Source: an uncultured Oscillospiraceae bacterium (lineage in GTDB: Bacteria > Bacillota > Clostridia > Oscillospirales > Oscillospiraceae). From it: a DNA stretch of 34,915 nt. This document shows, one piece after another, positions 6,989-32,772 of this stretch. The position numbers and the translations under genes are program-made. The first letter of the stretch is position 1. Each line of letters starts with the position of its first letter. A model generated the notes under the pieces. That model was not told where the DNA came from. It searched no databases and worked only from the letters and a program-made list of their open reading frames with translations. Location of the stretch: contig CALWYO010000069.1 in assembly GCA_944385785.1 (NCBI GenBank), positions 1 to 34,915 of the forward strand. The letters run 5' to 3'.

Positions 6989-7420
6989 CTACTGGTTGTT
7001 GCCGGACAGATACTCTAATGCCATAAGATATCCATCAAAGCCCAATCCTTTTATGGTTTTGACACATGCCTGACGTATATAGGATATTTTTCTGAAATTA
7101 TCGCGTGTGTCGGGATCGGAAATGTGGACTTCCACTGTGGGAATGCCTACAGCCTTTACTGCGTCTAAAAGAGCGACACTGGTGTGGGTGTAGGCAGCTG
7201 GATTTATAACTATGCCGTCAAATTTACCGTAGGCTTCCTGTATTGCGTCGACAATGGCACCTTCGTGGTTTGATTGAAAAAATTCCACATCGATATTTAG
7301 CTGAATGGCTTTTGACTTTATAAGGTCAATAAGCTGACTGTATGTTTGACTCCCGTAAATTTCAGGCTCACGTATGCCCAACATATTTATGTTAGGACCG
7401 TTAATTACTAATATTCTCAT
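6989..7420 (-). CDS. aroQ: Type II 3-dehydroquinate dehydratase
   Basis: 143 residues, the normal type II length. The start is the ATG at 7420 giving MRILVINGPNINMLGIREP; the longer open frame upstream lies inside the aroE-aroK gene. Family signatures are GPNxNxLG, the catalytic Tyr in EIYGSQTY, FFQSNHEG, NPAAYTHTSVAL and VEVHISDP. It dehydrates 3-dehydroquinate to 3-dehydroshikimate in the cytosol. It overlaps the preceding gene by 20 nt and is the last gene of the aromatic operon. Confidence 0.97.
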   Translation of the reverse strand: MRILVINGPNINMLGIREPEIYGSQTYSQLIDLIKSKAIQLNIDVEFFQSNHEGAIVDAIQEAYGKFDGIVINPAAYTHTSVALLDAVKAVGIPTVEVHISDPDTRDNFRKISYIRQACVKTIKGLGFDGYLMALEYLSGNNQ

Positions 7421-8648
7421 TAAACTCCCTCCATATGGCCAGCGCAGTTTCATGTACAGGCGTACGGTTATCAACGAGTACGTCCATAAATTTTTCATAC
7501 ATTGGTTTGCGGATACTATACATAGACAAAAGCCCGCCTGGTCCTGTGGACAGCGGCCTGCCTTCCGTAGCCAGGAGCTCAAGGGGACGGGACAGACAGT
7601 ATACACGTCCGTTTTGATGGAGAAGACTGTAGTTTTCGGGGACCGTCACGACACCTCCGCCGGTGGCAATGATTTTACCGCCATGACCGCAGATCTCGGT
7701 GAGAGCCCTGGTCTCAATTTTGCGGAATTCTTTTTCGCCATGTGAGAGGATAAACTGCTCTGGGGATGTGCCGAATTCGTCTTCAATATAGCGATCCATA
7801 TCCACAAGCTCCCTGCCGGTAAGTTTGGAGAGAGCCTGCCCCACGGAGCTTTTGCCGCTGCCAGGCATACCGATTATAACTATATTTGTGTTGTCCATAA
7901 ACAGTTTAGAAGCTATTGAGTCTATAACAGAGTCATCTATTTTACGCCCTGTAAAGAGTTCCTCAGCGGCTTTTGCCTGCGCTACCAACATAAATAGACC
8001 GCCTGAACAGGGAATAGAGCGGCTGGCGGCGTCCATAAGCAGGCCGGTGCGGAGAGGATTATATACTACATCCATAACGCCTGTGCAGTTGGGAAAGAGG
8101 TCAAGAGAAACTGGAGAGGCAGGACAGTTGGGATACATGCCTACAGGAGTTGTATTGACGATTATTTCTGCGTCAGAGTGACGGTCAAGATTTCCGTAGT
8201 TATTTTCACCTGAACGCGAGATAATCACAACTTCACTGGCGCCAAGACTCTTGGCGGCGGCAGTTGCAGTGCGGGATGTGCCTCCGGAACCAAGAATAAG
8301 GACTTTTTTCCCGTTAAAATCTATTCCTGCGCGCTTTACCGCGTATTCAAACCCATATTTGTCGGTGTTGTAGGCGTGAAGTCCATCGCCCCTGGGAACT
8401 ATGGTATTTACGGCGCCTATCTCATCGGCCTCGCTGTCGACATATGTACAGCTGGGGATTACATCACGCTTATATGGGATTGTGATATTAAGACCGCCAA
8501 TATCCTGCCGGATTAGGAATGATTTCAACTCTTCAGGTTCTAATTCTATAAGTTTGTACTCAGGGCAGCCCAGAGCTCTATGAATTTGAACTGAAAAACT
8601 GTGACCGAGCTTTCGACCCAACAGGCCATATATTTTACTATTGCTCAT
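7401..8648 (-). CDS. aroE-aroK: Shikimate dehydrogenase-shikimate kinase fusion
   Basis: 415 residues carrying two consecutive pathway enzymes. Residues 1-250 are AroE: shikimate-binding GHSFS (15-19), catalytic Lys60 in NITIPYK, AVNT (79-82), NTDKYGF with catalytic Asp96, and the NADP-binding GSGGTSRTA (120-128). Residues 252-415 are AroK: P-loop GMPGSGKS (260-267), DMD (283-285), FRKIE with Arg309, GGG (330-332) and lid Arg364 in EGRPL. The junction MDNTNIVIIG is short. AroE makes shikimate from dehydroshikimate with NADPH and AroK phosphorylates it, so the fusion could couple the steps. The start overlaps the pheA stop by ATGA and the SD is weak, so translation is probably coupled. Confidence 0.96.
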   Translation of the reverse strand: MSNSKIYGLLGRKLGHSFSVQIHRALGCPEYKLIELEPEELKSFLIRQDIGGLNITIPYKRDVIPSCTYVDSEADEIGAVNTIVPRGDGLHAYNTDKYGFEYAVKRAGIDFNGKKVLILGSGGTSRTATAAAKSLGASEVVIISRSGENNYGNLDRHSDAEIIVNTTPVGMYPNCPASPVSLDLFPNCTGVMDVVYNPLRTGLLMDAASRSIPCSGGLFMLVAQAKAAEELFTGRKIDDSVIDSIASKLFMDNTNIVIIGMPGSGKSSVGQALSKLTGRELVDMDRYIEDEFGTSPEQFILSHGEKEFRKIETRALTEICGHGGKIIATGGGVVTVPENYSLLHQNGRVYCLSRPLELLATEGRPLSTGPGGLLSMYSIRKPMYEKFMDVLVDNRTPVHETALAIWREFNENISN

Positions 8649-9787
8649 ATTTCAATATAATTACCTAAATATTTAAAACTGCTGCAACCCTGTTCAAGAC
8701 TCTCCAACATATCGACTACCCTCGGGTCATGGATGCTGGCTTCGATTTCAAAAAAGAACAGAAATTCAAAGTCGTGTCCTATAAGAGGACAGCTCTCAAG
8801 TTTTATGAGATTTATTTCAAGCGCCGCAATCTGTGCAAGAATATCGTATAAAGCGCCGGGCTTATGCTCACAGGTGAGTACAAGCGTTATCCTGTTGGCT
8901 CCAGGATAAACAACAGGGTCTTTTGCTATACATATAAAACGAGTGTAATTATTATCGCTGTTTTGAATATTGATTCCACGTATGGGTTCGAGGCCATAGA
9001 GAGCGGCGCAATTATCCGAGGATATGGCTGCTATGCCGCGTTTGGGCGACTGGGCAACCAACTTTGCGGCCATAGCGGTGTTGGCGCAGGGAATAGACTG
9101 TACTCTGTCGCCAAGAGACTTAAGGAAATTGCTGCATTGTCCCAGGGCCTGCTCATGGGAGTGTATTTCTGTAATTTCATCCAGAGTAACACCCGGCTTC
9201 GTCAGAAGCTCATGACGGATACAGAGCCTTTCACCGCGGACTATTGACACATTGTGCTTGTCCAGCAAATCGTAAACAGCTCTAACAGAACCGTTGGAGC
9301 TATTTTCAATTGGAAGAACTCCGAACTGGCACATGCCCTTTTCAACGGCGTCAAAAACGCCATCGAAGGATTTAAAAAAAACTATATCCCCCCGTGGGAA
9401 CATTTTATCTGCCGCCATTTGTGAATATGCTCCCTCTACGCCTTGGCAAGCGATCAGACCGTCAGATGGAAATAATTTCGGAGTGGATTTCAGAGACTGA
9501 TCAATAATGCTTCGCACTTTGGAGCCCTGGGAATAGAGACTGCGCTGATAAGTGCGGCCCAATTCAAAGAGAACATTAAACAACCGGTGAGTATACATGG
9601 ACATATTTCCGCTTTTGCCGGTCATATCCCGCAAAATTTCGCGTTCGCGCCCCTTGTTGAGAATTGGCATAGAATGCAGTGACTTATACTCCGCAACCTC
9701 CTTTGACAGCTCCATACGCTTTAAAAATAGCTCTAAAAGTTCATTGTCCAAGTCATCTATCTTATTGCGAATATCTGACAACTCCAT
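8645..9787 (-). CDS. pheA: Bifunctional chorismate mutase/prephenate dehydratase
   Basis: 380 residues. Residues 1-90 are an AroQ-type chorismate mutase helix bundle (IRNKIDDLDNELLELFLKRM). About 108-285 are prephenate dehydratase (ACQGVEGAYSQMAA, PIENSSNGSV and the catalytic NNYTRF). About 295-375 are an ACT domain with GALYDIL. The Phe-binding ESRP motif reads ESCP here (residues 331-334), so the usual arginine is a cysteine, which may alter feedback inhibition. It converts chorismate to phenylpyruvate. GGAGG precedes the ATG, which directly abuts the aroC stop codon. Confidence 0.96.
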   Translation of the reverse strand: MELSDIRNKIDDLDNELLELFLKRMELSKEVAEYKSLHSMPILNKGREREILRDMTGKSGNMSMYTHRLFNVLFELGRTYQRSLYSQGSKVRSIIDQSLKSTPKLFPSDGLIACQGVEGAYSQMAADKMFPRGDIVFFKSFDGVFDAVEKGMCQFGVLPIENSSNGSVRAVYDLLDKHNVSIVRGERLCIRHELLTKPGVTLDEITEIHSHEQALGQCSNFLKSLGDRVQSIPCANTAMAAKLVAQSPKRGIAAISSDNCAALYGLEPIRGINIQNSDNNYTRFICIAKDPVVYPGANRITLVLTCEHKPGALYDILAQIAALEINLIKLESCPLIGHDFEFLFFFEIEASIHDPRVVDMLESLEQGCSSFKYLGNYIEI

Positions 9788-10867
9788 CTATTTTTCCTCC
9801 AAAATAAAATCTAAGATAACTGATGCTGTAACAGCCTCTATAACTGGTACGGCTCTTAAAGCGATACACGGGTCATGCCTGCCGTGCACTGTGAGCTCTG
9901 CGGGTTCCATTCTTGAAAGGCTTACAGTCTGCTGGGTGCGGCTGATAGATGCGGTCGGTTTGACTGCTGCTCTGAGCACAATTGGCATACCCGTGGTTAT
10001 TCCGCCAAGTATGCCTCCGCTGTCGTTTTTTGAGGCAGATACATTTCCGCATTCAATGATAAATGGGTCGTTGTTCTCAGAACCGCGCTTTTGAGAGCCG
10101 GCAAAACCTGAACCAAATTCCAGGCCCTTAATTGCGGGTATTCCAAAAATTGCTGACGCAAGACGGTTCTCAATACCGTCAAACATCGGGTTGCCCAGCC
10201 CTGGGGGAAGGCCTATGGCGGCGCATTCGATTACACCGCCCACTGAATCCAGATCTTTGGAGGCCTGGGATATCAATTGCGACATCTGTATTCCCGCCGC
10301 ATCGCTGATTACAGGGATTGACTTACCTGCGATCTGCCTGAAGAGCTCGTTTGATGGATGCAGAGGAAATGAAAAATCGCATATGCTGCCGACAGAATAG
10401 AGGTGAGCCCCGACGTATATACCCTTTGTAGATAGAAATTGCTTTGCAATCCCGCCGGCTATACATAACGGCGCTGTAAGACGGCCGGAAAAGTGACCGC
10501 TTCCGCGCATATCTACACTGTCTCCAAAACGTGCTCTGGCTGTAAAATCAGCGTGGGATGGGCGCGGCTTATCCCACAGCTCTGAGTAATCTTTAGAGCG
10601 TGTATCAGTATTTTCTATTATAGCGCAAATAGGAAAACCATTAGTCGTTGTGCCGTTGATACCTGCGAGAAAGACAGGCGTATCAGCCTCTTTGCGCCGG
10701 GTGGTTAAGTCGCTGCTCCCAGGACGGCGTCTATCCATAAACTGCTGCAATTCATCCATATCCAGCTCTATACCGGCTGGAAGTCCGCTGATAACAACGC
10801 CAATGGCTTTGCCGTGGGATTCGCCAAAAACAGATACTTTAAAATTTTTCCCAAATTCAGATGACAT
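9788..10867 (-). CDS. aroC: Chorismate synthase
   Basis: 359 residues, full length. Signatures seen: FGESHGKAIGVVISGLPAG near residue 14, DRRRPG, HADFTARARFG, RGSGHFSGRLTA and GRHDPCIALRAVPVIEA near the C-terminus. It needs reduced FMN and eliminates phosphate from EPSP to give chorismate, the branch point for the Phe and Tyr enzymes encoded in this operon. TAGGAGG lies upstream of the ATG, which overlaps the aroA 3' end by 11 nt. Confidence 0.97.
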   Translation of the reverse strand: MSSEFGKNFKVSVFGESHGKAIGVVISGLPAGIELDMDELQQFMDRRRPGSSDLTTRRKEADTPVFLAGINGTTTNGFPICAIIENTDTRSKDYSELWDKPRPSHADFTARARFGDSVDMRGSGHFSGRLTAPLCIAGGIAKQFLSTKGIYVGAHLYSVGSICDFSFPLHPSNELFRQIAGKSIPVISDAAGIQMSQLISQASKDLDSVGGVIECAAIGLPPGLGNPMFDGIENRLASAIFGIPAIKGLEFGSGFAGSQKRGSENNDPFIIECGNVSASKNDSGGILGGITTGMPIVLRAAVKPTASISRTQQTVSLSRMEPAELTVHGRHDPCIALRAVPVIEAVTASVILDFILEEK

Positions 10868-12110
10868 TGGCGATACCTCCTAATGCTCTGAAATCTCTGA
10901 AGAATTCAGGATAAGATTTTTCTACGGCCTGAGCTCCAACAATAGTTACAGGACTCTGGCAAAAGGCGCCGGCAATTGCTGCAGCCATGACGATCCGGTG
11001 ATCGTTGCAACCGTTGACTATTCCGCCGGAAAGTCCTCCGCCAGAGACTATAAGTCCGTCCGGCAGCTCAAGGCAATGCCCACCCAGGGAGGATAGCATG
11101 GACGATGTTGCGGCGAGACGATCGCTCTCTTTTAGCCGGAGTCTGGCGCCGCCGTAAAAGCGAGTCTCGCCGCGGGCAAAGGCGGCGGTAACGGCTAATA
11201 TAGGCAAAAGGTCCGGTATATTTGATATATCTATTTCCAGGGAACTGAGGTCACCGCATTTTACAGTGACAAAATTCTCATCAGATACGACGTGGGCTCC
11301 AAAACTGTGAAGGATTGACGTAATTTTTTTATCTCCTTGAAGTGAAGTGCTGGAGAGGCCAGACATTTGAATGTCGCCACCGAGGGCTCCGGCGGCCAGG
11401 AAAAAGGCGCCATTGGACCAGTCGCCTTCGGCTGATATGCAGAGTGGGGACTTATACTGTGAATCTGCCGGTACAAGCCATCCATTTGCGGTGCCAGCGA
11501 CTTTTACGCCGAAGCTGTTCATTGTAGAGACAGTCATATCCACATAGGACGAGGACTCAAGGACTGTCGTCAACTGGATACCGCCACCACCTGAGAGCGG
11601 AAGAGACAGGAGTATTCCGGATATATACTGGGAACTTATATTTCCAGGTATTAAAAACTCTCCGCCTGACATACGGCCGCTGATAGAAAAGGGGAGTTTA
11701 TCCGAGGAAAAGTTTACTCCATGACTGCCCATGGCGCTCATAAGTTCACTGATGGGTCTATCAGGGAGTTTGCCAGAGCCTGAAAAGTATCCACTGCCGC
11801 AGGCGGCAGCAACTACAGGCAGGAGAAATCGGAGAGTAGATCCGCTCTCACAACAATCGCACACAGGAGAGAGTGTGAAATTTTCAGGCGAAGCAACGAG
11901 AAAGTATTCACTCTCACGTGTAATATTCGCACCCATGGAACGGAGAACTCCTGCGGTGGCATCGATGTCCTTTGACGTATCGGTAATATGTATTTTGGTG
12001 GTTTCCCCAGCGCATAATCCGGCGCATATCAGAAGCCTGTGTGCATCGGACTTTGATGAGATTGCAGAGATTTTTCCGGAAAGGGGCGACGGAGTTATGG
12101 TTATATCCAT
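10857..12110 (-). CDS. aroA: 3-phosphoshikimate 1-carboxyvinyltransferase (EPSP synthase)
   Basis: 417 residues, typical length. Key motifs: SKSDAHRLLICAGL near the start, ESGSTLRFLLPV (phosphate and PEP-binding loop), SQYISGILLSLPL, RLKESDRLAATS and NDHRIVMAAAIAG. It transfers enolpyruvyl from PEP to shikimate 3-phosphate. AGAGG precedes the ATG. The gene follows aroB by 26 bp. Confidence 0.97.
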   Translation of the reverse strand: MDITITPSPLSGKISAISSKSDAHRLLICAGLCAGETTKIHITDTSKDIDATAGVLRSMGANITRESEYFLVASPENFTLSPVCDCCESGSTLRFLLPVVAAACGSGYFSGSGKLPDRPISELMSAMGSHGVNFSSDKLPFSISGRMSGGEFLIPGNISSQYISGILLSLPLSGGGGIQLTTVLESSSYVDMTVSTMNSFGVKVAGTANGWLVPADSQYKSPLCISAEGDWSNGAFFLAAGALGGDIQMSGLSSTSLQGDKKITSILHSFGAHVVSDENFVTVKCGDLSSLEIDISNIPDLLPILAVTAAFARGETRFYGGARLRLKESDRLAATSSMLSSLGGHCLELPDGLIVSGGGLSGGIVNGCNDHRIVMAAAIAGAFCQSPVTIVGAQAVEKSYPEFFRDFRALGGIANVI

Positions 12111-12136
12111 AGTTACCTCTTATCTATATAGTAATT

Positions 12137-13201
12137 TTACCGCTGAGCGCCCAAACTGATGATGTCGAAAAGCTCAGGGACTTTTATTGTCATCAGTTCA
12201 CACTGTCCAATACGCTTTGGGACAACAATTGTTATATTGTCGCCGCTGCGCTTTTTATCAGATAGCGCCGCATTATACAGATCTTCTGGATCGTAGTCTG
12301 TATAGGTTGGCAGCCCGTTGCGTATAAGGCATTTTTCAATTCTATCGGTTGTGCCGTTCTCTGTAAATCCCATTCTTTCACCAGCCTGAGACATCATTAC
12401 CATACCTACGGCGACGGCGTGGCCATGGGGGAAAGTGTATCCGCTGAGATTTTCTATAGCGTGGCCGATAGTGTGTCCCAGGTTTAAAAGCCTCCTGACA
12501 GAGTTATCGTGTTCGTCCTCTTCTACAAGTCGGCCCTTGATAGCAACGCACTCTGACACCAGTTGGGCAATAGATTCTCTAACTTCCCCGCGCTCAAAAA
12601 CATCAAATATACGTTCGCTGGTGAGCACTCCATATTTTATTGCTTCGGCTGCTCCATCGGCGAAAATATCTGGCGCCAACGTACTGAAAGTATTTATATC
12701 GCATATTACCGAGGAAGGCTGAAGAAAAACGCCAGCCAGATTTTTGCCTGACGACAGGTCTACGGCTGTTTTTCCGCCTACTGAAGAATCTACGGCGGCT
12801 AAAAGAGTAGTGGGAATTTGGACGTATTTTATTCCGCGCATATAGACGCCAGCTGCAAAACCAGTTATGTCTCCAGTTACGCCTCCGCCCAGAGCGATTG
12901 CTATATCGGACCTGGTGAGACCGTTATCGGCAAAGGATTCCAATATCTCTGAGAGCACATGAAGATTTTTGGAGCTTTCACCTGCGGGAAAAACAAAACT
13001 TATGGGATCAAAACCTGCATCCTCCAGACTTTTCATTACAGGTTGCAGATACAGCTTCTCGACATTTGAGTCGGTGACGACAGCTGCACGGCATTTTCCG
13101 ACTACCTGAGATATAATTTTGCCGCATTCTGCGGTTAAATTTGAGCCGATATGGACGGCATAACCGTTGCCGGCATTTATGTTGACCGAGAATTCATCCA
13201 T
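12137..13201 (-). CDS. aroB: 3-dehydroquinate synthase
   Basis: 354 residues from the ATG at 13201 (MDEFSVNINAG). This start has GGAGG six to seven bases upstream and sits one base after the tyrA stop; the 13 extra codons of the longer frame overlap tyrA and lack an SD. NAD-binding and active-site motifs: PAGESSKN, ALGGGVTGDITGFAAG, QIPTTLLAAVDSSVGGKTAV, DGAAEAIKYG, LNLGHTIGHAIE and HGHAVAVGM. It is a metal- and NAD-dependent enzyme that closes DAHP to 3-dehydroquinate, the second pathway step. Confidence 0.97.
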   Translation of the reverse strand: MDEFSVNINAGNGYAVHIGSNLTAECGKIISQVVGKCRAAVVTDSNVEKLYLQPVMKSLEDAGFDPISFVFPAGESSKNLHVLSEILESFADNGLTRSDIAIALGGGVTGDITGFAAGVYMRGIKYVQIPTTLLAAVDSSVGGKTAVDLSSGKNLAGVFLQPSSVICDINTFSTLAPDIFADGAAEAIKYGVLTSERIFDVFERGEVRESIAQLVSECVAIKGRLVEEDEHDNSVRRLLNLGHTIGHAIENLSGYTFPHGHAVAVGMVMMSQAGERMGFTENGTTDRIEKCLIRNGLPTYTDYDPEDLYNAALSDKKRSGDNITIVVPKRIGQCELMTIKVPELFDIISLGAQR

Positions 13202-13202
13202 A

Positions 13203-14039
13203 TTATTTGCCTCCGGCTGTAGCTTTAAGTTGACGCCCATTCTTTAAAAGTTCACGGAGACTATCGGTGTCGTTTGCTTTAAGAGCGTTCATATATTCGT
13301 TTAAGTGGCTGATAAAAGTATCAAGCTCAGATATGAGATTGTCTCTGTTGGCGGAGAACAGCTCAGTCCACATGTTTTCATCAAGCCTTGCCACACGGGT
13401 CATGTCATTGAAACTGCCGGCAGAAAATCCCATATGAGTTTGAGCAGTTGGGGATTTAACATAGGCGCTGGAGGAGATATGCGCCAGCTGCGATGTATAT
13501 GCAATGATCCTGTCATGCTCTTCGGGTGTTGAGAAAGTAATTACGCCAAAACCTATGGACAGGAAGAACGATTTTAACTTGTCAAGGACGATTATATTTG
13601 AATTTTCATCCGGCGTTAGTATCATAGATGCGCCTACAAAAAGTTCGGTGTCCGCATTGGCAAATCCGCTTAATTCTTTGCCGGCCATTGGGTGACCGCC
13701 GATATATGAGAAACCATATTTCTGTGCAAGAGGAGCTATTGCAGAGCAGATAACACGCTTAACGCCGCACAGATCGCAGAGTATTGTATTACTTGATATT
13801 TTCGGGGCAGTTTCTTCAGCCCATTTGAGCAGAGCCGATGGGGGCAGTGCGGCTAACAACAGATCGCAGTCTTTAAGATTGTCCTCAGTAAGCGGTGCGT
13901 CAATTGAACCTGACATTGTAGCCATGGTCATTGTCTCGTTATCTTTGTCTATTCCGTAAACTGTATGTTCTGTACGGACTTTGATGCTTTTAGCCATGGA
14001 ACCGCCTATCAGCCCAAGGCCGACTATACCTACAGTCAT
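13203..14039 (-). CDS. tyrA: Prephenate dehydrogenase
   Basis: 278 residues from the ATG at 14039 (MTVGIVGLGLIGGS), which has AGGAGG upstream and overlaps aroF by ATGA. The N-terminal Rossmann domain carries GLGLIGGS; the C-terminal helical domain carries GGHPMAGKE and TSQLAHI, with the catalytic-type histidine. It oxidatively decarboxylates prephenate to 4-hydroxyphenylpyruvate for tyrosine. No C-terminal ACT domain is present, unlike Bacillus TyrA, so control may rest more on the leader attenuator (inference). Confidence 0.95.
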   Translation of the reverse strand: MTVGIVGLGLIGGSMAKSIKVRTEHTVYGIDKDNETMTMATMSGSIDAPLTEDNLKDCDLLLAALPPSALLKWAEETAPKISSNTILCDLCGVKRVICSAIAPLAQKYGFSYIGGHPMAGKELSGFANADTELFVGASMILTPDENSNIIVLDKLKSFFLSIGFGVITFSTPEEHDRIIAYTSQLAHISSSAYVKSPTAQTHMGFSAGSFNDMTRVARLDENMWTELFSANRDNLISELDTFISHLNEYMNALKANDTDSLRELLKNGRQLKATAGGK

Positions 14040-15058
14040 CCCACTTCCTCCTCGTTTATCCAACACGTCTCATGTATTATCTGAAGTTTTTTTGCCAGTG
14101 ACTCAAATGCCTCAGGCTTTAGAGATTGAGGACCGTCGCACAGCGCATGTTCCGGATCGTTGTGAACCTCGATAATCAGGCCGTCGGCTCCAGCGGCAAC
14201 CGCAGCGCAGGAAAGGGGCGCTACAAGTGTGCTTCTTCCGGCAGAATGACTAGGATCTACTATGATTGGAAGGTGTGAGAGCTTTTTTAAAACAGGGACA
14301 GCAGACACGTCCATGGTATTTCTCGTGTATGTCTCAAATGTTCTGATTCCTCTCTCACAGAGGACGACGTTCATATTGCCGCCAGCCATTATATACTCTG
14401 CGCTCATCAACAGCTCTTCATAGGTAGCTGAAAGACCGCGTTTTAAAAGTATTGGCTTGTCTACGGTACCCAGCAGCTTTAATAATTCAAAATTTTGCAT
14501 ATTCCTGGCGCCAACCTGTATCATATCCACATCGTCGAAAAGCTCCAACTGAGAGGCATCCATTATTTCTGTGACTATAGGCAGCCCTGTCTCCTCTTTT
14601 GCCAGCTTCAAAAGCCGTATGCCTTCACCGCGAAGACCCTGGAATGAGTATGGCGAAGTTCGCGGCTTAAAAGCGCCTCCTCTTAAAATAGTGGCTCCGC
14701 TGGCCTTTACGCTTTTAGCTACGGATATTATCTGCTCTTCGGATTCAACAGAACAGGGGCCGGCTATAAGTGTGAGATTGCCACCTCCAATAGTGATGTT
14801 GCCAACTTTAATTACAGAATCCTGTGGATGGAATTTTCTGTTGGCATTTTTGTATGGCTCCTGTATCCTCTTGACATCCTCAACTATATCCAGGGCATTC
14901 AGCAGATCGATATCTATTGATGAGGTGTCACCCACAAGACCTAAAATTGTCTGGTGTACGCCTACGGTAGGGTGAATCTCAATCCCTTTGGCCTGAAGCC
15001 AGGAGACAAGACTGTCAAGTTGTGTTTTATTTGGATTTTCTTTTAAAATTACTACCAT
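14036..15058 (-). CDS. aroF: 3-deoxy-7-phosphoheptulonate (DAHP) synthase
   Basis: 340 residues, type I-beta. An N-terminal ferredoxin-like regulatory domain (about 1-70, MVVILKENPNKTQLDSLVSW) precedes the KDPG-type barrel, which has IAGPCSVESEEQI, FKPRTSPYSFQGL, QVGARNMQNFELL, KRGLSATYEELL, CERGIRTFE and IIVDPSHSAG. The N-terminal domain in related enzymes (for example Thermotoga) mediates Tyr/Phe feedback. It condenses PEP with erythrose 4-phosphate, the committed step. GGAGGG precedes the ATG. It is the first structural gene, 29 bp after the attenuator stem. Confidence 0.97.
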   Translation of the reverse strand: MVVILKENPNKTQLDSLVSWLQAKGIEIHPTVGVHQTILGLVGDTSSIDIDLLNALDIVEDVKRIQEPYKNANRKFHPQDSVIKVGNITIGGGNLTLIAGPCSVESEEQIISVAKSVKASGATILRGGAFKPRTSPYSFQGLRGEGIRLLKLAKEETGLPIVTEIMDASQLELFDDVDMIQVGARNMQNFELLKLLGTVDKPILLKRGLSATYEELLMSAEYIMAGGNMNVVLCERGIRTFETYTRNTMDVSAVPVLKKLSHLPIIVDPSHSAGRSTLVAPLSCAAVAAGADGLIIEVHNDPEHALCDGPQSLKPEAFESLAKKLQIIHETCWINEEEVG

Positions 15059-17500: not shown

Positions 17501-20500
17501 TTAATACTCATAAATGCCCTCGTAGACAAGGACTGCATCGCCGGTAAGGATAATGCGCTCATCGGTGTAGTTCACAGTTAAATCTCCGCCTTCCAACTTG
17601 ACTGTGATATCCTTGCCTTTCGCAAGATAGCCATTTTCAGTTGCTGCTACAACGGCGGCGCAGGCGCCGGTTCCACTGGCCTTTGTCTCACCATTGCTGC
17701 GCTCATAGACGCGCACGCGTATTGTTTCGTCGTTAACTACGCGAATAAACTCACAGTTTGTACGATCGGGGAATATATCCGCCTGTTCTATCTGGGGACC
17801 AATTTCCTGAAGATTCAGTGAGTCGATATCATCAAAGAACATGGAGCAATGGGGATTGCCTAAAGAGGAACAGGTTATTTTATAATTCCTACCGGCAATA
17901 GTCACGGGGTAGTCGATTACTACAGGCATATCGATTGTGGTTGGGATGGTCCTGGAGGCCAAACTCACCTTGCCCATGTGTGCGCTGACAGTGCTTACTC
18001 TGCCGTTACGTATATATAATTGCAGGGACTTAACACCGTCATCCGTCTGGATAGTCATGTATTCATGGCGTACAATGTTTTTATCATAGAGATATTTGGC
18101 TACACAGCGTATGGAATTGCCGGCCATCTTGCTCTCGCTGCCGTCCTGATTGAAAATACGCATTTTCGCGTCAGCGCCTGCGGAATTTTCAATGAGCACG
18201 ATACCGCAGCCGCCTATACCGTAGTTTCTATCGCATACAGTTACGCACAATGACTCTGGACTTGTGATCCTCCCATCTCGGTTATCGAAAAAGATGTAGT
18301 CATTGCCGCAGCTGTGCATTTTTGCGAAGTGTACTAATTCCCTGCGGCGGCGCATATTGTTCAGGTTTACAAGCTCAGTGTTCTCATCGTTGAATCTGCT
18401 GGCGAGAGTATCCGCTATAGCTCCGGCGGTATCTAAAGAGGTGATGCACGGTATACGAAGGCGGACGGCTCTGGCGTGAAGCTCAATATAGTCTCCCATG
18501 GTATCGTCGTAAAGAGCGCCCGTATAGACAATGAAACTTATACGCCCGCTATCCATAAGTGAATAGGTGTCGGCGTCGCGCCCGACGTGGCCCACATCAA
18601 TTGCCTCGATTCCAAGAGACCGGACTGCCTGGGCGGTATCAGGGGTGGCGTAAATGATCATATGAAGATCGCTGAGCTTTTTGGCCAGCTTTACAACTTC
18701 GCCAAGCTCGTGGTTTTCTACGCTCAAAAGAACGCCGTTCTTGCTGGAATTCAGAGCGCCTGTAAGATCGTAACCTGCTGCACGGAGCCCTTTGAAGAGT
18801 GCCTCATTTAATGTGCGCCCAATTCCCAGCACTTCGCCGGTGGACTTCATTTCAGGACCTAACATTGAGTTTGCATCGGTTATCTTTTCAAAAGAGAATA
18901 CAGGTACTTTTATCGCATAATAGGGGGGCGTATCGCAAAGGACCTGATTATATCCTAAACTCTTAAGCGTAGCGCCCATCATTACGCGAGAAGCCACATC
19001 GACCATTGGTATACCGGTAACTTTAGAAAGATACGGCACGGTCCTGGAAGCTCTGGGATTAACCTCAATAACATAGAGCTCATTTTTGTAAATAAGATAC
19101 TGGATGTTTACAAGGCCCCTTGTGCCCAGCTCAAGGGCGAGACGTTTGGAACATTCTACAACCACATTCATCATTTTATCAGTGAGATTGTATGGCGGAT
19201 AGACAGCGATGGAGTCGCCGGAGTGGACACCGGCTCTCTCGATGTGTTCCATTATGCCGGGCATCAATACATCGGTGCCGTCGGATATAACGTCTACCTC
19301 CAGCTCTGTGCCGGGCATGTACTTGTCTACAAGTACAGAATTGTCCGCCTGATCGCTGCCGGAAAGAATAATACCCATATACCGGCGCACATCAGATTCG
19401 TCATGGGCAATGACCATATTTTGTCCGCCAATGACGTAAGAAGGCCGCAAGAGAACAGGATATCCAAGACTTTCTGCGGCTGAAAGAGCCTCTTCAAGGC
19501 TGTGAGTTCCCATGCCGCGCGGACGTTTTATACCCAGTTTTCCCAAAAGCGCATCAAAACGCTCTCTATCTTCAGCAAGATCGATACCTTCGGCTGAGGT
19601 GCCCAGTATTTTGATACCCTGCTTATCCAGGAAATTGGTGAGTTTTATGGCAGTCTGGCCGCCAAAAGCAACGACCACGCCGATAGGTTTTTCCACTGCT
19701 ATGACGCCCATTACGTCCTCTGGACAGAGAGGTTCAAAATAGAGCCTGTCTGCGGTATCATAATCTGTAGACACAGTTTCAGGGTTATTATTTATGATAA
19801 CAACGTCATAACCCAACTTTTTAAGCGTGACGGCGCAGTGAACTGAGCTGTAGTCAAATTCGATACCCTGACCGATCCTAATGGGACCTGAACCAATAAC
19901 AATTACGGAATCCTTATTGCGTACGGCAGGCCTGGAATCGCATTTATCGTCGTATGAGGCATAGTAGTATGGGGTCTCCGCTTCGAATTCGGCGGCGCAT
20001 GTATCCACCATCTTATAAACAGGGTCGACATGTGGAATATTGGACTGCCCGGAGATTGCCTTAAGGGCAGAGTCCGGATATCCGAACTTTTTCCCCTGGA
20101 TATAGCTTTTTTCATCAATGCCTTCCTGGGATATGTGCTGCTCATACTGAGCGAGGTTTTGCAGTTTCCAGATAAACCATTTGTCGATAGTGGTAATCTC
20201 ATGGATTCTGTCGACGGTGTATCCGGACTTCAGAGCCTCAAAAACTGTAAAAATCCTAAGGTCATCCATTGCGGCAAGACGGTCGTCAAGAGAATCCGGA
20301 GTTTCAGGAGCGCGATTAAGAGTCTCCTGTCCGATTTCGGCGCCGCGGATTGCCTTCATAAGGGCAGCTTCAAAAGTATGCCCTATGGCCATTACTTCAC
20401 CGGTGGCCTTCATCTGAGTACCTAAACGCCTCTGGGCTCCGTGGAACTTATCAAATGGCCACTTTGGAAATTTGACTACTACATAGTCAAGAGTCGGCTC

Positions 20501-21538
20501 AAAACAGGCAAAAGTTTTACCGGTGATATCATTTTTTATCTCATCTAAAGTGTAACCGAGTGCTATCTTTACCGCTACCTTGGCTATTGGGTAACCGGTT
20601 GCCTTAGAAGCCAGAGCAGACGAACGTGACACACGGGGATTGACCTCAATGACAGAATATTCAAAGCTGTCAGGATTTAGAGCAAACTGGCAGTTGCAGC
20701 CGCCTTCAATTCCCATTTCGGTAATTATATCAAGGGCTGCCGTCCTAAGCATCTGGTACTCTTTGTCCGCCAGGGTTAACGCTGGCGCAACTACGATGGA
20801 GTCCCCCGTGTGTATACCGACTGGGTCAAAATTCTCCATTGAGCAGACGGTAATTACGTTGCCTGCGTGATCACGCATGACTTCAAATTCAATCTCTTTC
20901 CAACCGGCGATATACCGCTCAACAAGCACCTGAGTGATTGGAGAGGCCTCAAGGCCATTAAAAGCAACTTCACGCAGTTCCTCTGGCGAGTAAGCAACAC
21001 CGCCGCCACCGCCTCCCAGAGTAAAGGCAGGGCGGATTATGACAGGATAGCCGATATTATCGGCTATTTCCAAAGCGCCGTCTACAGTATTGGTAGTTTC
21101 AGATGGCACAGTGGGCTGCCCAATGCGTGCCATGGCCTCTTTGAAAAGTTCGCGGTCTTCAGCTTTGTCAATGGCGTCGGCGTTTGTACCGATAAGCCGT
21201 ACGCCGTGGCGCTCCAGGAAACCCTCATGGGCCAATTGCATTGCAATTGTAAGACCGGTCTGGCCGCCCAGGCCTGCCAAAAGACAGTCCGGTCGCTCTT
21301 TTAAGATTATCCTTTTTACAGTTTCCGTATTTAAAGGCTCCAGATATACGGCGTCAGCCATGTCACCGTCAGTCATGACAGTGGCGGGATTGGAGTTTAC
21401 GAGTACCGATTTAACACCTTCGCTTTTCAATATACGGCAGGCTTGCGTACCAGCGTAGTCAAACTCGGCGGCCTGGCCGATGACGATGGGGCCTGAACCG
21501 ATAACAAGTACCTTTTTTATAGTTCTATCTAAAGGCAT
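17501..21538 (-). CDS. carB: Carbamoyl-phosphate synthase large subunit fused to a DapF-like domain
   Basis: 1345 residues in one open frame. Residues 1 to about 1061 are complete CarB: the two ATP-grasp synthetase halves (GSGPIVIGQAAEFDYAGTQ near 13 and GSGPIRIGQGIEFDYSSVH near 558) and the MGS-like allosteric domain. From about 1066 to 1345 a full diaminopimelate epimerase-like domain follows without a stop: MHSCGNDYIFFD at 1074, FNQDGSESKMAGNSIRC, SLGNPHCSMF and YERSNGETKASGTGACAA. In DapF the catalytic cysteines are in MCGNG/A and ACGTGA; here they are Ala1139 and Ser1288, and GIGGDG reads GIGGCG (Cys1111). Epimerase activity is therefore doubtful. The operon partner dapL makes LL-DAP, DapF's substrate. 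An internal ATG at residue 1062 could in principle start a separate protein. It begins 1 bp after carA. Confidence 0.93.
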   Translation of the reverse strand: MPLDRTIKKVLVIGSGPIVIGQAAEFDYAGTQACRILKSEGVKSVLVNSNPATVMTDGDMADAVYLEPLNTETVKRIILKERPDCLLAGLGGQTGLTIAMQLAHEGFLERHGVRLIGTNADAIDKAEDRELFKEAMARIGQPTVPSETTNTVDGALEIADNIGYPVIIRPAFTLGGGGGGVAYSPEELREVAFNGLEASPITQVLVERYIAGWKEIEFEVMRDHAGNVITVCSMENFDPVGIHTGDSIVVAPALTLADKEYQMLRTAALDIITEMGIEGGCNCQFALNPDSFEYSVIEVNPRVSRSSALASKATGYPIAKVAVKIALGYTLDEIKNDITGKTFACFEPTLDYVVVKFPKWPFDKFHGAQRRLGTQMKATGEVMAIGHTFEAALMKAIRGAEIGQETLNRAPETPDSLDDRLAAMDDLRIFTVFEALKSGYTVDRIHEITTIDKWFIWKLQNLAQYEQHISQEGIDEKSYIQGKKFGYPDSALKAISGQSNIPHVDPVYKMVDTCAAEFEAETPYYYASYDDKCDSRPAVRNKDSVIVIGSGPIRIGQGIEFDYSSVHCAVTLKKLGYDVVIINNNPETVSTDYDTADRLYFEPLCPEDVMGVIAVEKPIGVVVAFGGQTAIKLTNFLDKQGIKILGTSAEGIDLAEDRERFDALLGKLGIKRPRGMGTHSLEEALSAAESLGYPVLLRPSYVIGGQNMVIAHDESDVRRYMGIILSGSDQADNSVLVDKYMPGTELEVDVISDGTDVLMPGIMEHIERAGVHSGDSIAVYPPYNLTDKMMNVVVECSKRLALELGTRGLVNIQYLIYKNELYVIEVNPRASRTVPYLSKVTGIPMVDVASRVMMGATLKSLGYNQVLCDTPPYYAIKVPVFSFEKITDANSMLGPEMKSTGEVLGIGRTLNEALFKGLRAAGYDLTGALNSSKNGVLLSVENHELGEVVKLAKKLSDLHMIIYATPDTAQAVRSLGIEAIDVGHVGRDADTYSLMDSGRISFIVYTGALYDDTMGDYIELHARAVRLRIPCITSLDTAGAIADTLASRFNDENTELVNLNNMRRRRELVHFAKMHSCGNDYIFFDNRDGRITSPESLCVTVCDRNYGIGGCGIVLIENSAGADAKMRIFNQDGSESKMAGNSIRCVAKYLYDKNIVRHEYMTIQTDDGVKSLQLYIRNGRVSTVSAHMGKVSLASRTIPTTIDMPVVIDYPVTIAGRNYKITCSSLGNPHCSMFFDDIDSLNLQEIGPQIEQADIFPDRTNCEFIRVVNDETIRVRVYERSNGETKASGTGACAAVVAATENGYLAKGKDITVKLEGGDLTVNYTDERIILTGDAVLVYEGIYEY

Positions 21539-21539
21539 A

Positions 21540-22610
21540 TCATTTAACCTCCATCATCTCTATGAATCTATCAAAGGCGCCTTCACAATCCCTGGGGCCT
21601 CCGTGGGCCTCCGGATGGAACTGCATGGAAAAGGCGCGGATTTCCGGATAGTCAACGCCCTCGCATGTGCCGTCGTTGACGTTCACATATCTGAGCTTGG
21701 CGCCGATGGGCTTTAAGCTCTCGGCGTCTACAGCGTATCCGTGGTTTTGACACGTGATATATACGCGCCCCGTCTCCAGATCTTTTACAGGTTGATTGGC
21801 GCCGCGGTGGCCGAACTTCATTTTAGATGTGGTTGCGCCGGCGGCAATAGCCATCATCTGGTGACCAAGGCATATACCAAATATGGGGGCTTTGCCAAAC
21901 AGCTTTTTTATTTCTTCAATGCAGCCCTGATTATCAGCTGGATCGCCAGCTCCGTTTGACAGCATTATTCCATCGGGGCAAGTGTCCAGGATCTCCTGAG
22001 CGGTAGCGTTGTATGGGAACACCTCAACGCGGCATCCACGGCGGGTGAGATTGCTTATCATGCTTCGCTTGGCGCCATAGTCGATAAAGGCCACACGAAA
22101 CCGTTCGCTACCGTCTGCCTCTACAATAAAGCGGTCTTTTGTGCTGGTGTTTTTCACAGCGTCGGTTATTTTAAATTTCTGAAGTTTCTCGATGGGATAT
22201 TCCTGCCCCTCGGTGGTAATCACGGCATTCATTACACCGCCGTCTCTGATCATCTGTGTCAGTTCCCTGGTGTCTATGCCGGAGATGCCTACTATCCCAT
22301 GTCGCTTTAAAAAAGCGTCTACGCTCTCATCGCAGCGGAAATTGGAGGGTTTATCACAATATTCCCTTACTATAGCTCCGCGGACATGGATTCCAGAGCT
22401 CTCCATGTCCGCGTCGGCGATGCCATAATTTCCGAATTGAGGAAACGTAAATATGACCAGCTGACCGTAGTAGCTGGGATCTGTGAGGCTCTCTGCACAG
22501 CCGGTCATGCCGGTTGTAAAGACCAGTTCACCGACACTTGTGCCGGATGCGCCAAAAGAGATACCCTCATACGTCTTTCCATTTTCCAATATAAGATAAG
22601 CGTTCTGCAT
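21540..22610 (-). CDS. carA: Carbamoyl-phosphate synthase small (glutaminase) subunit
   Basis: 356 residues, full length. The N-terminal CarA domain opens with ILENGKTYEGISFG. The class I glutamine amidotransferase domain has the nucleophile in FGICLGHQMMA and the partner His/Glu in MQFHPEAHGG. It supplies ammonia from glutamine to CarB for carbamoyl phosphate used in pyrimidine and arginine synthesis. GGAGGAG precedes the ATG; it lies 43 bp after dapL and 1 bp before carB. Confidence 0.97.
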   Translation of the reverse strand: MQNAYLILENGKTYEGISFGASGTSVGELVFTTGMTGCAESLTDPSYYGQLVIFTFPQFGNYGIADADMESSGIHVRGAIVREYCDKPSNFRCDESVDAFLKRHGIVGISGIDTRELTQMIRDGGVMNAVITTEGQEYPIEKLQKFKITDAVKNTSTKDRFIVEADGSERFRVAFIDYGAKRSMISNLTRRGCRVEVFPYNATAQEILDTCPDGIMLSNGAGDPADNQGCIEEIKKLFGKAPIFGICLGHQMMAIAAGATTSKMKFGHRGANQPVKDLETGRVYITCQNHGYAVDAESLKPIGAKLRYVNVNDGTCEGVDYPEIRAFSMQFHPEAHGGPRDCEGAFDRFIEMMEVK

Positions 22611-22653: not shown

Positions 22654-23874
22654 TCAATGGAGAATAGTAGTTATCCTCTCCACGGCTTCCTTTGTGGCAT
22701 CAGCATCGCCAAAAGCGGTAAGGCGGATATAACCTTCACCGGAGGGACCGAAGCCGGCGCCAGGTGTTGTAACAACACAGGCCTTATGCAGCAGCAGATC
22801 AAAGAAGTCCCATGAGGGCATATCGTCAGGAGTGCGGCACCATATATATGGGGCGTTGATTCCTCCGTAGACGGTGAGTCCTGCTGCCTGAAGTCCTTCA
22901 CGTATAACTTTTGCATTATTAAGGTAATATGCTATTGATTCTTTTATTTGAGCCTGACCCTCAGGGGAGAAGGTGGCCTCTGCTGCGCGCTGAATTACAT
23001 ACGGTACACCGTTAAACTTTGTGCCCTGACGTCTGTTCCAAAGGGCGTTGAGAGATGCGCCGCCGCGCTCCAATGCCTTTGGTATGACTGTATAGGCGCA
23101 TCGATTACCGGTAAATCCGGCGGTCTTTGAGAATGAACGGAACTCAATAGCGCAAGTTTTAGCTCCGGGAACTTCATATATGCTGTGGGGAATACCTGGC
23201 TCAGAGATAAATGCCTCATAGGCGCTATCGTAGAGTATGATACTGCCATGTTCATTTGCATAATCCACCCAGACCTTAAGCTGCTCTACAGTTGCGGCAG
23301 TTCCAGTGGGATTATTAGGCGAACAGATATATATAAGGTCGGGAATACGTTTTTCCGGAAGCGAAGGAAAGAAACCGTTCTCTGCCGTACAGGGCAGATA
23401 CACAAGATTTGTCCACTTCTCACCGTCATAGTCCCCAGCACGCCCAGCCATAGCATTGGTATCAACATAAACAGGGTAGACAGGGTCGCAGACAGCAACT
23501 ACATTATCAACTGAAAATATATCGCCTATATTTCCGCAGTCAGATTTTGCCCCGTCAGACACAAAAATCTCATCGTCAGCTATATCAACGCCGTTTGCTT
23601 TATAATTATCCCTGATAGCAAAACGTATAAAATCATATGCACCGCAGGTCTCTTCACAGTAACCTCGGAAAGTCTCCTTGTGTCCCATCTCCTCGGTTGC
23701 CTTGTGCATCGCTTCTACCACAACAGGAGCAAGCGGCAGTGTGACATCTCCAATACCCATACGTATAAGAGGCATAGGAGGATTTTGAGCTGCGAAAGCT
23801 TTTGTGCGTCGCCCAATCTCCGGAAAGAGGTAACCGCCTGGAAGTTTGAGGAAATTTTCGTTTACTTTAACCAT
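22654..23874 (-). CDS. dapL: LL-diaminopimelate aminotransferase
   Basis: 406 residues, typical length. Class I/II aminotransferase with family features: [19 protein letters not shown] at the N-terminus, [45 protein letters not shown] and the PLP lysine in [16 protein letters not shown]. It converts tetrahydrodipicolinate directly to LL-diaminopimelate using glutamate, bypassing the acylated DAP routes. AAGGAGAG precedes the ATG. It is first in the dapL-carA-carB operon, whose last gene ends in a DapF-like domain, which would be the next step in lysine and peptidoglycan precursor synthesis if active. Confidence 0.97.
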
Positions 23875-23987: not shown

Positions 23988-24016
23988 ATTATATATTTTG
24001 CGGTATCAAATGTCAA
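23988..24016 (-). promoter_or_regulatory. Promoter of the dapL-carA-carB operon
   Basis: Perfect TTGACA (24011-24016), 17-bp spacer and perfect TATAAT (23988-23993) on the minus strand. The leader of about 105 nt contains a run of nine T (RNA U) at 23927-23935 after a weak potential hairpin; it is too short for a lysine riboswitch. Confidence 0.85.
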
Positions 24017-29739: not shown

Positions 29740-31080
<1,341 letters not shown>

Positions 31081-31128
31081 TTATGCAGCCTCCAAACAAA
31101 AAATTTATTACATGTTAAATAATGGAAA

Positions 31129-31170
31129 ACGGCAAAAACGGCGCAGACGAATCTGCGACGCCTTTGCCGT
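31129..31170 (-). promoter_or_regulatory. Leader hairpin of gdhA
   Basis: In the gdhA 5' UTR, ACGGCAAA (31163-31170) pairs with TTTGCCGT (31129-31136), enclosing GGCG pairs and a CGCAGA-UUCG-UCUGCG stem capped by UUCG. It begins about 8 nt after the predicted transcription start and ends 49 nt before the ATG. It is followed by UUUCC, a weak U-tract, so it may be an attenuator or a 5' stabilising structure. Confidence 0.55.
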
Positions 31171-31184
31171 AAATCTTTTGATAT

Positions 31185-31212
31185 TTTATAACAGCAATCA
31201 TGTATTTGTCAA
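31185..31212 (-). promoter_or_regulatory. Promoter of gdhA
   Basis: Perfect TTGACA (31207-31212), 16-bp spacer and TATAAA (31185-31190) on the minus strand; transcription start near 31178. Confidence 0.75.
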
Positions 31213-31385
31213 GCACAGGTGTAAAGTTTTTGAATAATAATTGAATATCTAATTGCAAATGCAACAACAGAGCAGCGAGATAAAGAGAGAGAAGTGAAAA
31301 TATATGTTTTTAAGCGATTTTTGGGAGGAGATTACATACCCGCGGGGCAGATGGCAACAGGTTTGATACGGCACTGCCCTTAATA
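31213..31385. other. Intergenic stretch without a recognised element
   Basis: Between the gdhA and glnA promoters. No ORF with an SD, tRNA or clear hairpin was seen. The segment may hold activator or repressor sites for the divergent pair, but no palindrome stood out. Confidence 0.4.
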
Positions 31386-31415
31386 TTGACAAGGACGTTG
31401 AGCATAAATTATAAT
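31386..31415 (+). promoter_or_regulatory. Promoter of the glnA operon
   Basis: Perfect TTGACA (31386-31391), 18-bp spacer and perfect TATAAT (31410-31415). The start near 31422 gives a structured leader of about 100 nt. The spacer contains GACGTTGAGC, nearly repeated as GACGTTGGGC at 31426-31435. Confidence 0.75.
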
Positions 31416-31422
31416 TATAGAT

Positions 31423-31501
31423 AAAGACGTTGGGCGAAGGCGCCTTTCGATGGAGCGCACGGCGGGAAAATGCCGTATGCTTTCAGGGGAGCCTTCTTTT
31501 T
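31423..31501 (+). terminator. glnA leader attenuator, candidate ANTAR target
   Basis: GAAGGCGCCTTT (31436-31447) pairs with AGGGGAGCCTTC (31485-31496) except for one G-A mismatch (two G-U pairs). It encloses a second helix, 31453-31463 with 31472-31482, and is followed by TTTTT (31497-31501): a long intrinsic terminator 20 nt before the glnA start. Its 5' arm overlaps an alternative hairpin, 31423-31429 with 31441-31447. Its 3' arm CCTTC (31492-31496) can also pair with GAAGG of the glnA SD (31508-31512). Mutually exclusive folds of this type are how ANTAR proteins control antitermination; an ANTAR gene follows glnA. The canonical hexaloops with A1 and G4 were not found, so the link is inference. 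Confidence 0.6.
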
Positions 31502-31521
31502 ACTTTGGAAGGGGCTTCTTT

Positions 31522-32724
31522 ATGTATTCGTACGAAGATATTATGTCATATATCCAAGAAGAAAATGTTAAATTTGTAAGGCTGGCATTTTGCGATATTT
31601 TTGGACAGCAGAAGAATATCGCCATTATGCCGGATGAGTTGGAGCGCGCTTTTAAGTACGGAATATCTTTTGATGCATCGGCGATACGTGGGTTCGGTAG
31701 TGAAGTCCGGTCGGACATGTTCCTGCATCCAGACCCGTCCACACTGATGGCTCTGCCCTGGAGATCCATAAACGGCAGTGTTGTGCGTATGTTTTGTGAT
31801 ATATGCCATCCGGACGGCAAACCGCTGGAGACAGATAGCCGATATATCCTTAAAAGAGCTGTAGAATATGCAAAAGACAGAGGGCTGAAATGTTACTTTG
31901 GCTCAAAATTTGAATTTTACTTATTTGAGACAGATGAACGCGGTGAACCTACGGATATGCCCTTTGACAAGGCGGGGTATTTGGACATTGCTCCGGGAGA
32001 TAGAGGAGAAAACGTACGACGTGAGATATGCATAACGCTTTCTGAAATGGGAATACAGCCTGAGAGCTCACATCATGAAGAGGGACCAGGGCAGAATGAG
32101 ATTGACTTCAGATATAGCGATGCAATTTCCGCTGCGGACAACGCAGTGACTTTTAAGGCTGTTGTCAGAACGATTGCAAAGGCAAACGGACTGTATGCAA
32201 ATTTTGACCCGAAGCCAATAAAGGGCAAGAGCGGGAATGCGATGCATATAAATATATCTATTGATGGGCAGGATAGCGAGAAAAAAATATATAGTTTTAT
32301 GGCTGGTGTTATGGAGCACATAAATGAGATCACAGCTTTCCTCAATCCTACGGAGACTTCGTATCAGAGGTTTGGGGAAATGCGTGCACCAAAATATATT
32401 ACCTGGTCTCCGGAGAATAGATCTCAGCTTATACGTATTCCCGCTGCACAGGGAGAGCATACGAGAATAGAACTGCGGTCTCCGGATCCGGGGGCAAATC
32501 CATATTTGGCGTATGCGCTGCTGATTTATGCTGGAATTGACGGAATAGAGCGCGGACTGGATCCGGACAAACCGGTAAATATGAACTTATATAATGCTCC
32601 CAGCGAAGTGACCGGAAATCTGAAAACGCTTCCACTTTCATTTATGGAGGCGTCGGAGATGATGAAGAGGAGCGAGTGGGTGAAAAGCTTGCTGCCTGAG
32701 GCATATATCAGGATGTATGGATGA
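31522..32724 (+). CDS. glnA: Glutamine synthetase, type I, short C-terminus
   Basis: 400 residues from the ATG at 31522 (MYSYEDIMSY), which has GGAAGGGG seven bases upstream; an in-frame ATG at 31450 would translate the terminator stem. Catalytic motifs: FGSKFEFYLF, SSHHEEGPGQNEIDFRY, GKSGNAMHINISI, WSPENRSQLIRIP and RIELRSPDPGANPYLA. Typical GSI is about 440 residues; this one ends soon after LPLSFMEASEMMKRSEWV and lacks most of the C-terminal helical extension. The usual RLVPGYEAP loop reads RFGEMRAP. It makes glutamine from glutamate, ammonium and ATP. It heads an operon with the ANTAR regulator and guaA. Confidence 0.93.
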   Translation: MYSYEDIMSYIQEENVKFVRLAFCDIFGQQKNIAIMPDELERAFKYGISFDASAIRGFGSEVRSDMFLHPDPSTLMALPWRSINGSVVRMFCDICHPDGKPLETDSRYILKRAVEYAKDRGLKCYFGSKFEFYLFETDERGEPTDMPFDKAGYLDIAPGDRGENVRREICITLSEMGIQPESSHHEEGPGQNEIDFRYSDAISAADNAVTFKAVVRTIAKANGLYANFDPKPIKGKSGNAMHINISIDGQDSEKKIYSFMAGVMEHINEITAFLNPTETSYQRFGEMRAPKYITWSPENRSQLIRIPAAQGEHTRIELRSPDPGANPYLAYALLIYAGIDGIERGLDPDKPVNMNLYNAPSEVTGNLKTLPLSFMEASEMMKRSEWVKSLLPEAYIRMYG

Positions 32725-32772
32725 AGCTGTTTGACTGTATGTGCTTTTGTAGTAAGAAAGGGGGAGAAATAA

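Follow-up and report, generated by a model that had tools for sequence, protein, structure and literature searches.

A diaminopimelate epimerase domain without its catalytic cysteines fused to carbamoyl-phosphate synthase in an uncultured Oscillospiraceae bacterium

The carB::dapF gene and its operon

The window analysed here, a stretch of 34,915 nucleotides from an uncultured Oscillospiraceae bacterium, contains on its minus strand an operon in which dapL comes first, followed by carA and then by a carB::dapF fusion gene. The dapL gene (22654..23874) encodes an LL-diaminopimelate aminotransferase of 406 aa (TIGR03542, 571.6 bits versus a cut-off of 364.7), and LL-DAP is both the product of DapL and the substrate of DapF. 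The carA gene (21540..22610) encodes the small subunit of carbamoyl-phosphate synthase, of 356 aa (TIGR01368, 450.6 bits versus a cut-off of 307.35). The fusion gene (17501..21538) is a single open frame of 1345 aa, uninterrupted over its 1345 codons. The initial annotation had claimed that the carB frame continues into a full-length DapF domain, and both family profiles from NCBIfam bear this out with scores above cut-off: TIGR01369 (CarB) matches residues 4-1043 at 1373 bits, and TIGR00652 (DapF) matches residues 1070-1343 at 246.7 bits (cut-off 114.65).

The CarB part (18356..21538, minus strand, residues 1-1061) has the attributes of a carbamoyl-phosphate synthase large subunit, namely a profile match from end to end, both synthetase halves and an adjoining carA partner, and it includes a weakly scoring MGS allosteric domain. 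It is followed by a DapF-like C-terminal domain (17504..18355, minus strand, residues 1062-1345), supported by profile, AlphaFold2 and Foldseek; its bounds take in a conserved linker Met, compared with 17501-18340 in the initial annotation. Three substitutions were read at the positions originally reported, all on the minus strand. Ala1139 (codon GCC, 18122..18124) replaces the first catalytic cysteine, Cys73 of E. coli and H. influenzae DapF; Ser1288 (codon AGT, 17675..17677) replaces the second, Cys217; and Cys1111 (codon TGC, 18206..18208) gives GIGGCG where DapF has GIGGDG. Thus the whole DapF fold (TIGR00652 / PF01678) is present with a score well above cut-off, but the domain differs from DapF in that it has neither catalytic cysteine (MCGN..., ACGTG) and is fused to CarB, with an intact DapF encoded elsewhere in the genome.

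A sigma-70-type match, TTGACA-17-TATAAT (23988..24016, minus strand), which agrees with the consensus at 12/12 positions, lies upstream of dapL and, to judge from its sequence, is likely the promoter of the operon. An inverted repeat followed by TTTT can be read directly past the stop codon of the fusion, though the scan that gave the promoter match did not call it. No Rfam family reaches its gathering score in the window, and a riboswitch or RNA leader linking the operon to lysine thus has no support from Rfam. The linker ATG is conserved in 104 of 135 fused genes (near-copies counted) and absent from the remainder, and a simple pattern found no Shine-Dalgarno-like match upstream of it in the fused genes. 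Separate translation of the DapF domain from this ATG is no general feature, and it may hold for the window.

Elsewhere in the window, an aromatic amino-acid cluster (6989-15058, minus strand) includes dehydroquinase II, a fused shikimate dehydrogenase-shikimate kinase and a chorismate mutase-prephenate dehydratase, along with aroC, aroA, aroB, tyrA and a DAHP synthase gene assigned by resemblance of sequence only. An NADP-glutamate dehydrogenase gene and a glutamine synthetase-like gene scoring under the GlnA cut-off are found at 29740-33378, adjoined by a gene for an ANTAR-domain protein.

Predicted structure of the fusion protein

Residues 548-1345 were modelled with AlphaFold2 from an alignment of 42 sequences (mean pLDDT 85.5, pTM 0.85). 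The DapF domain is well formed in the model, with means of 86-97 over 10-residue blocks. Foldseek matches the model to carbamoyl-phosphate synthase (1bxr_A) and to DapF; the best DapF fit is 9mro_A, from an inhibitor-bound set (TMt 0.92, rmsd 1.6, 282 columns), and the matches also include 2q9h and 2q9j, the structures of the C73S and C217S mutants.

The MGS domain of the CarB part (18440-18700, CarB residues 947-1033) scores 24.4 against a Pfam cut-off of 24.1. Compared with E. coli CarB (1bxr), the window protein carries an extra C-terminal domain of 284 residues, and it has Leu and His at the positions aligned with K954 and K993, which we take to be MGS allosteric-site positions. Lys occupies these two positions in 36/38 and 38/38 of the fusions with both cysteines and in a minority of the Ala/Cys fusions (the L198u row, in a wrong reading frame, was left out of this comparison). 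The idea that the DapF domain has replaced MGS allostery is unsupported by independent pairs, and the difference is largely one clade-wide shift. One unfused CarB (G054) shows the MGS pattern of the Ala/Cys clade and nests within that clade.

Distribution and origin of the fusion

CarB proteins longer than 1300 residues are widespread in related Clostridia, where the initial annotation had proposed looking for them. Judged on the length and identity of the frame, 39 of 60 relatives have the fused gene; in five of them the frame is short and apparently truncated by the end of a contig. The window's genus contributes 33 genomes to the 60 and 25 to the 39. PF02787 gives one CarB in 32 of the 39 fused relatives, two in four and none in three cut cases, so in most of them no CarB besides the fusion was found. 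The survey of the order took in 158 genomes and gave a fused frame in at least 53, each of which was read; completeness in this survey is at least 95%, except for the window's own genome (73%). At the level of the class, judged by frame length alone, 29 of 243 genomes have a matching frame of more than 1300 aa at E <= 1e-78, and 26 of these 29 are in other orders. Wherever fused loci were read, CarB lies on the same frame except in L007 and L096, whose frames without CarB were counted as cut fusions. Fused frames are mostly 1340-1375 aa in length, and no internal stop was found in the fused matches of the 60 relatives and the 158-genome survey.

Among the best 80 matches, the named carriers include Ruminococcus sp. 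FC2018, Neglectibacter sp. X58 and Candidatus Alloscillospira gallinarum, the last being the nearest named one (65% over the domain). Two records titled Treponema and Spirochaetaceae (L117, L142) also contain carB::dapF, through either horizontal transfer or mis-binned contigs. Four genomes of the window's genus (G025, G026, G028 and G029) have no CarB match and one DapF match each.

Two short-search trees bear on the origin of the fusion. The fused domains require two changes in a 177-row DapF tree, and the fused versus unfused state requires three changes in a 94-row CarB tree, in which a node of support 100 unites all 77 fused rows with two unfused ones. This topology fits a single old fusion followed by two losses of the domain. 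The domain is apparently dispensable, since two unfused CarBs nest within the fused clade.

Gene order points to how the fusion may have arisen. An unfused relative (G058) has contiguous dapF-dapL-carA-carB, and in the Ruminococcus-type genomes the order is carA-carB::dapF-dapL and neither cysteine has been lost; the partners were therefore probably operon neighbours before they were fused. The Ruminococcus-type gene (L097, L100, L101, L109, L123 and L146) shares the fusion, the junction and the tree origin of the window gene, but differs from it in keeping both cysteines and in having dapL directly downstream, and its product would presumably be bifunctional in the full sense. It is very probable that the fusion began in a catalytically active form. 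Two other arrangements were seen: L121 has carA, then a stand-alone dapF with both cysteines and dapL further on, with no CarB match in the DNA read, and L110, L180 and L195 each have a carB::dapF with both cysteines and a second stand-alone Cys/Cys dapF within the same short locus.

Recurrent loss of the catalytic cysteines

Beyond what the initial annotation noticed, the fusion is old and the loss of the first cysteine has recurred many times. Among 134 distinct fused domains, 38 have both cysteines, 71 have lost the first only, one has lost the second only and 24 have lost both. At least one cysteine is thus missing in 96 of the 134, compared with none of 79 distinct DapFs unfused to CarB, three of which belong to DapF-Mur ligase fusions. 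Six further unfused DapFs were read, of which five keep both cysteines and one lacks the second, so that almost all cases of cysteine loss are in fused copies. On a 108-row CarB tree, the state of the first cysteine changes nine times and that of the second three times.

Another route to meso-DAP exists in most genomes whose fused domain is defective. In the survey there are 37 such genomes, of which 29 have a second DapF, seven have meso-DAP dehydrogenase (Ddh) only and one has neither; every second DapF in the 29 was read and has both cysteines, and single-copy genomes were rechecked with PF01678. The Ddh match in one genome (G171) is weaker and in two pieces. A second DapF or Ddh is therefore present in 36/37 genomes with a defective domain versus 11/16 with an intact one (P = 0.007, Fisher's exact test, ignoring kinship); a comparison controlled for kinship had only two usable independent pairs and therefore no power. 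A defective fused domain with no backup found occurs in G062 (97% complete, in the survey) and in G020 (86%) and G041 (90%), both from outside the survey. The second DapF with both cysteines that the initial annotation had suggested seeking is present in the window's genome, on contig C46; no Ddh was found in that genome, which is 73% complete.

Purifying selection on the fused domain

Selection was estimated pairwise by the Nei-Gojobori method, leaving out pairs with saturated dS. Between the window and G023, whose frame is 325 aa so that the comparison covers the DapF domain and not the CarB part, dN is 0.012 and dS 0.866 (omega 0.014). The stand-alone Cys/Cys DapFs of the same two genomes give an omega of 0.116, a contrast drawn from one genome pair. 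In the sister clade of the window, ten pairs give omega values of 0.020-0.177 for the domain and 0.028-0.127 for the CarB part. In fusions other than those of the sister clade, omega is often higher for the domain than for the CarB part, by up to about threefold (0.273 versus 0.096 and 0.158 versus 0.061 in other fused pairs), and the same is seen in intact fusions (0.061 versus 0.019). Omega is well below 1 in all usable pairs. The dead domain is under purifying selection, as the initial annotation had proposed in favouring selection over decay. An enzyme homologue without its catalytic residues that is under purifying selection, here by pairwise estimate only, corresponds to a pseudoenzyme.

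Conservation of the DAP pocket

The window domain retains N11 and E208, which we take to be DAP-holding positions, together with N64, N75, N157, N190, R209, G218 and T219, so that it lacks only the cysteines from the complete set (window pattern N N A G N N N E R S G T). The roles given to the DAP-holding residues follow in part the excerpts of PMC8225329. Most of these residues are also kept in the 71 domains that lack only the first cysteine: N190, E208 and G218 in all 71, N64, N157 and R209 in 70 each, T219 in 69 and N75 in 68, with N11 in just 53. N157 is found in 63 of the 79 DapFs unfused to CarB; its variability even there is partly due to an alignment insertion at that site.

Among 75 tree rows without C73, the pocket columns other than N11 and the Cys217 column change in 0-4 steps, compared with a median column of 14.5; N11 takes 11 steps, and position 73, which drifts among A, G, S and F, takes 12. 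About one-fifth of all domain columns match Cys217 in conservation in these rows, and pocket conservation is not extreme. The pattern of kept residues suggests that ligand binding may have outlived catalysis.

The initial annotation had stated that the rest of the fold is intact. This holds for the clade of the window and fails for the sister clade of the same genus (Ala/Asn, 19 distinct sequences), in which most DAP-recognition residues are gone (N11, N157, N190, E208 and R209) and the domain is retained. With those residues mostly lost and omega at 0.020-0.177, DAP binding is not needed for retention of the domain in the sister clade.

Proposed function of the C-terminal domain

We propose that the C-terminal domain is probably a pseudoenzyme that has been retained as a non-catalytic module of a carbamoyl-phosphate synthase to which it was fused once while catalytically complete. 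A non-catalytic role as helper or sensor is probable because the catalytic residues have been lost yet the domain is strongly preserved. A catalytically complete DapF would have been fused once to the end of CarB in an operon of the dapL-carA-carB type, and catalysis would have been lost later in many lineages able to make meso-DAP otherwise; the domain would have been kept because it was already a working part of carbamoyl-phosphate synthase. Its most likely mode of action is non-catalytic, that of an accessory or allosteric unit beside the MGS domain of CarB. In the window lineage and most others, the domain would probably still bind DAP or a similar amino dicarboxylate and relay its occupancy to CarB, and the outcome would be a coupling of nucleotide and arginine precursor supply to cell-wall and lysine precursor supply. 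What we infer here is that the domain is inactive as an epimerase, binds a ligand and acts on CarB.

The initial annotation had offered three functions, namely a new isomerase, a DAP or lysine sensor and a structural appendage, and these can now be ranked, the isomerase coming last for the window protein, which has neither acid/base residue. DAP sensing, taken as a step by itself, is a distinct possibility that we hold tentatively: it agrees with the window and with most lineages but not with the pocket-less sister clade. A bolder version, in which the repeatedly stripped DapF serves as a DAP-sensing allosteric subunit of carbamoyl-phosphate synthase and one genus has traded the pocket for a new ligand or interface, seems rather unlikely to us; if true, pyrimidine and arginine precursor synthesis would be set by the cell-wall and lysine precursor pool.

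The main rival, in view of the pocket loss in the sister clade, is a purely structural or protein-interaction appendage that lends CarB stability or helps to assemble an oligomer or a complex (DapL and CarA being possible partners) and has no ligand role. A structural or interaction role fits every clade, including the pocket-less one under purifying selection. E. coli DapF offers a likeness (6d13, 6vck): according to the excerpts of PMC4227774, it is a dimer, and DapF(C73&217A) is inactive yet binds and activates RppH, so that a DapF fold minus both cysteines can still act on another enzyme. The E. coli case differs in that a separate, active enzyme moonlights, whereas the window copy is naturally cysteine-less and covalently joined to an unrelated CarB. 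A structural role alone, however, leaves the kept pocket unexplained: Cys217 remains in 71 of the 95 distinct domains without C73, and the pocket columns are slow, though their residues may serve folding. We regard this explanation as a real possibility, though not the probable one.

An enzyme with altered chemistry, such as a one-base epimerase, a beta-eliminase or another isomerase, is improbable. The same 71 domains keep nearly all pocket residues besides Cys217, single-cysteine DapF mutants can reportedly eliminate HX from halo-DAP, and Ser1288 is conceivable as a weak base. However, the window protein has neither base, the drift at position 73 is unlike that of a re-purposed catalytic residue, and all but one of the 37 survey genomes concerned encode a Cys/Cys DapF or Ddh at another locus. 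The C73&217A form of E. coli DapF was also described as inactive in the excerpts of PMC4227774.

That the domain is a functionless leftover, costly to remove, is highly improbable: catalysis was lost repeatedly where it was seemingly dispensable, and the whole domain was probably lost twice, but the low omega values of the window pair and of the ten sister-clade pairs, and the lack of internal stops among fused matches, speak against it. An assembly or annotation artefact, that is, an overlooked stop or a frameshift separating carB from dapF, which the initial annotation had raised, has a practically negligible chance even though many relatives are metagenome-assembled genomes, being contradicted by stop-free matches and by the identical junction found in 53 or more of the 158 genomes of the order and in records without a MAG title, e.g., Ruminococcus sp. 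FC2018 and Neglectibacter sp. X58.

Under the reading we prefer, that of a pseudoenzyme kept as a non-catalytic module, the parts are known and their combination, with a clear evolutionary series, is apparently unreported in the open-access literature. We found no published report of a CarB-DapF fusion or a DapF pseudoenzyme among the open-access matches listed, a set outside which subscription papers and preprints fall. The series is a natural one, with one partner and in one gut-bacterial group, from a presumed two-headed enzyme to forms minus the first cysteine, minus both and minus the pocket, and it opens the transition from an enzyme to a pseudoenzyme regulator to direct testing. It may also expose a control point between nucleotide and arginine supply and peptidoglycan supply. 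For annotation, a DapF domain match in such genomes does not equal an epimerase gene.

Other unusual DapF homologs

Two further kinds of DapF homolog were encountered. The unfused copy without the second cysteine (L243:277-1182, genome G109) is a stand-alone DapF-like protein with FSDGTA in place of ACGTG and CQHD in place of GND, and represents a second kind of degenerate DapF. In three loci (L057:3857-6238 of G004, L058:2618-4951 of G027 and L060:2266-4608 of G031), a Cys/Cys DapF lies ahead of a Mur ligase in one frame of about 780 aa, with Pfam confirmation for L060 alone. A plausible reading of this fusion is an epimerase joined to a DAP-adding (MurE-like) enzyme.
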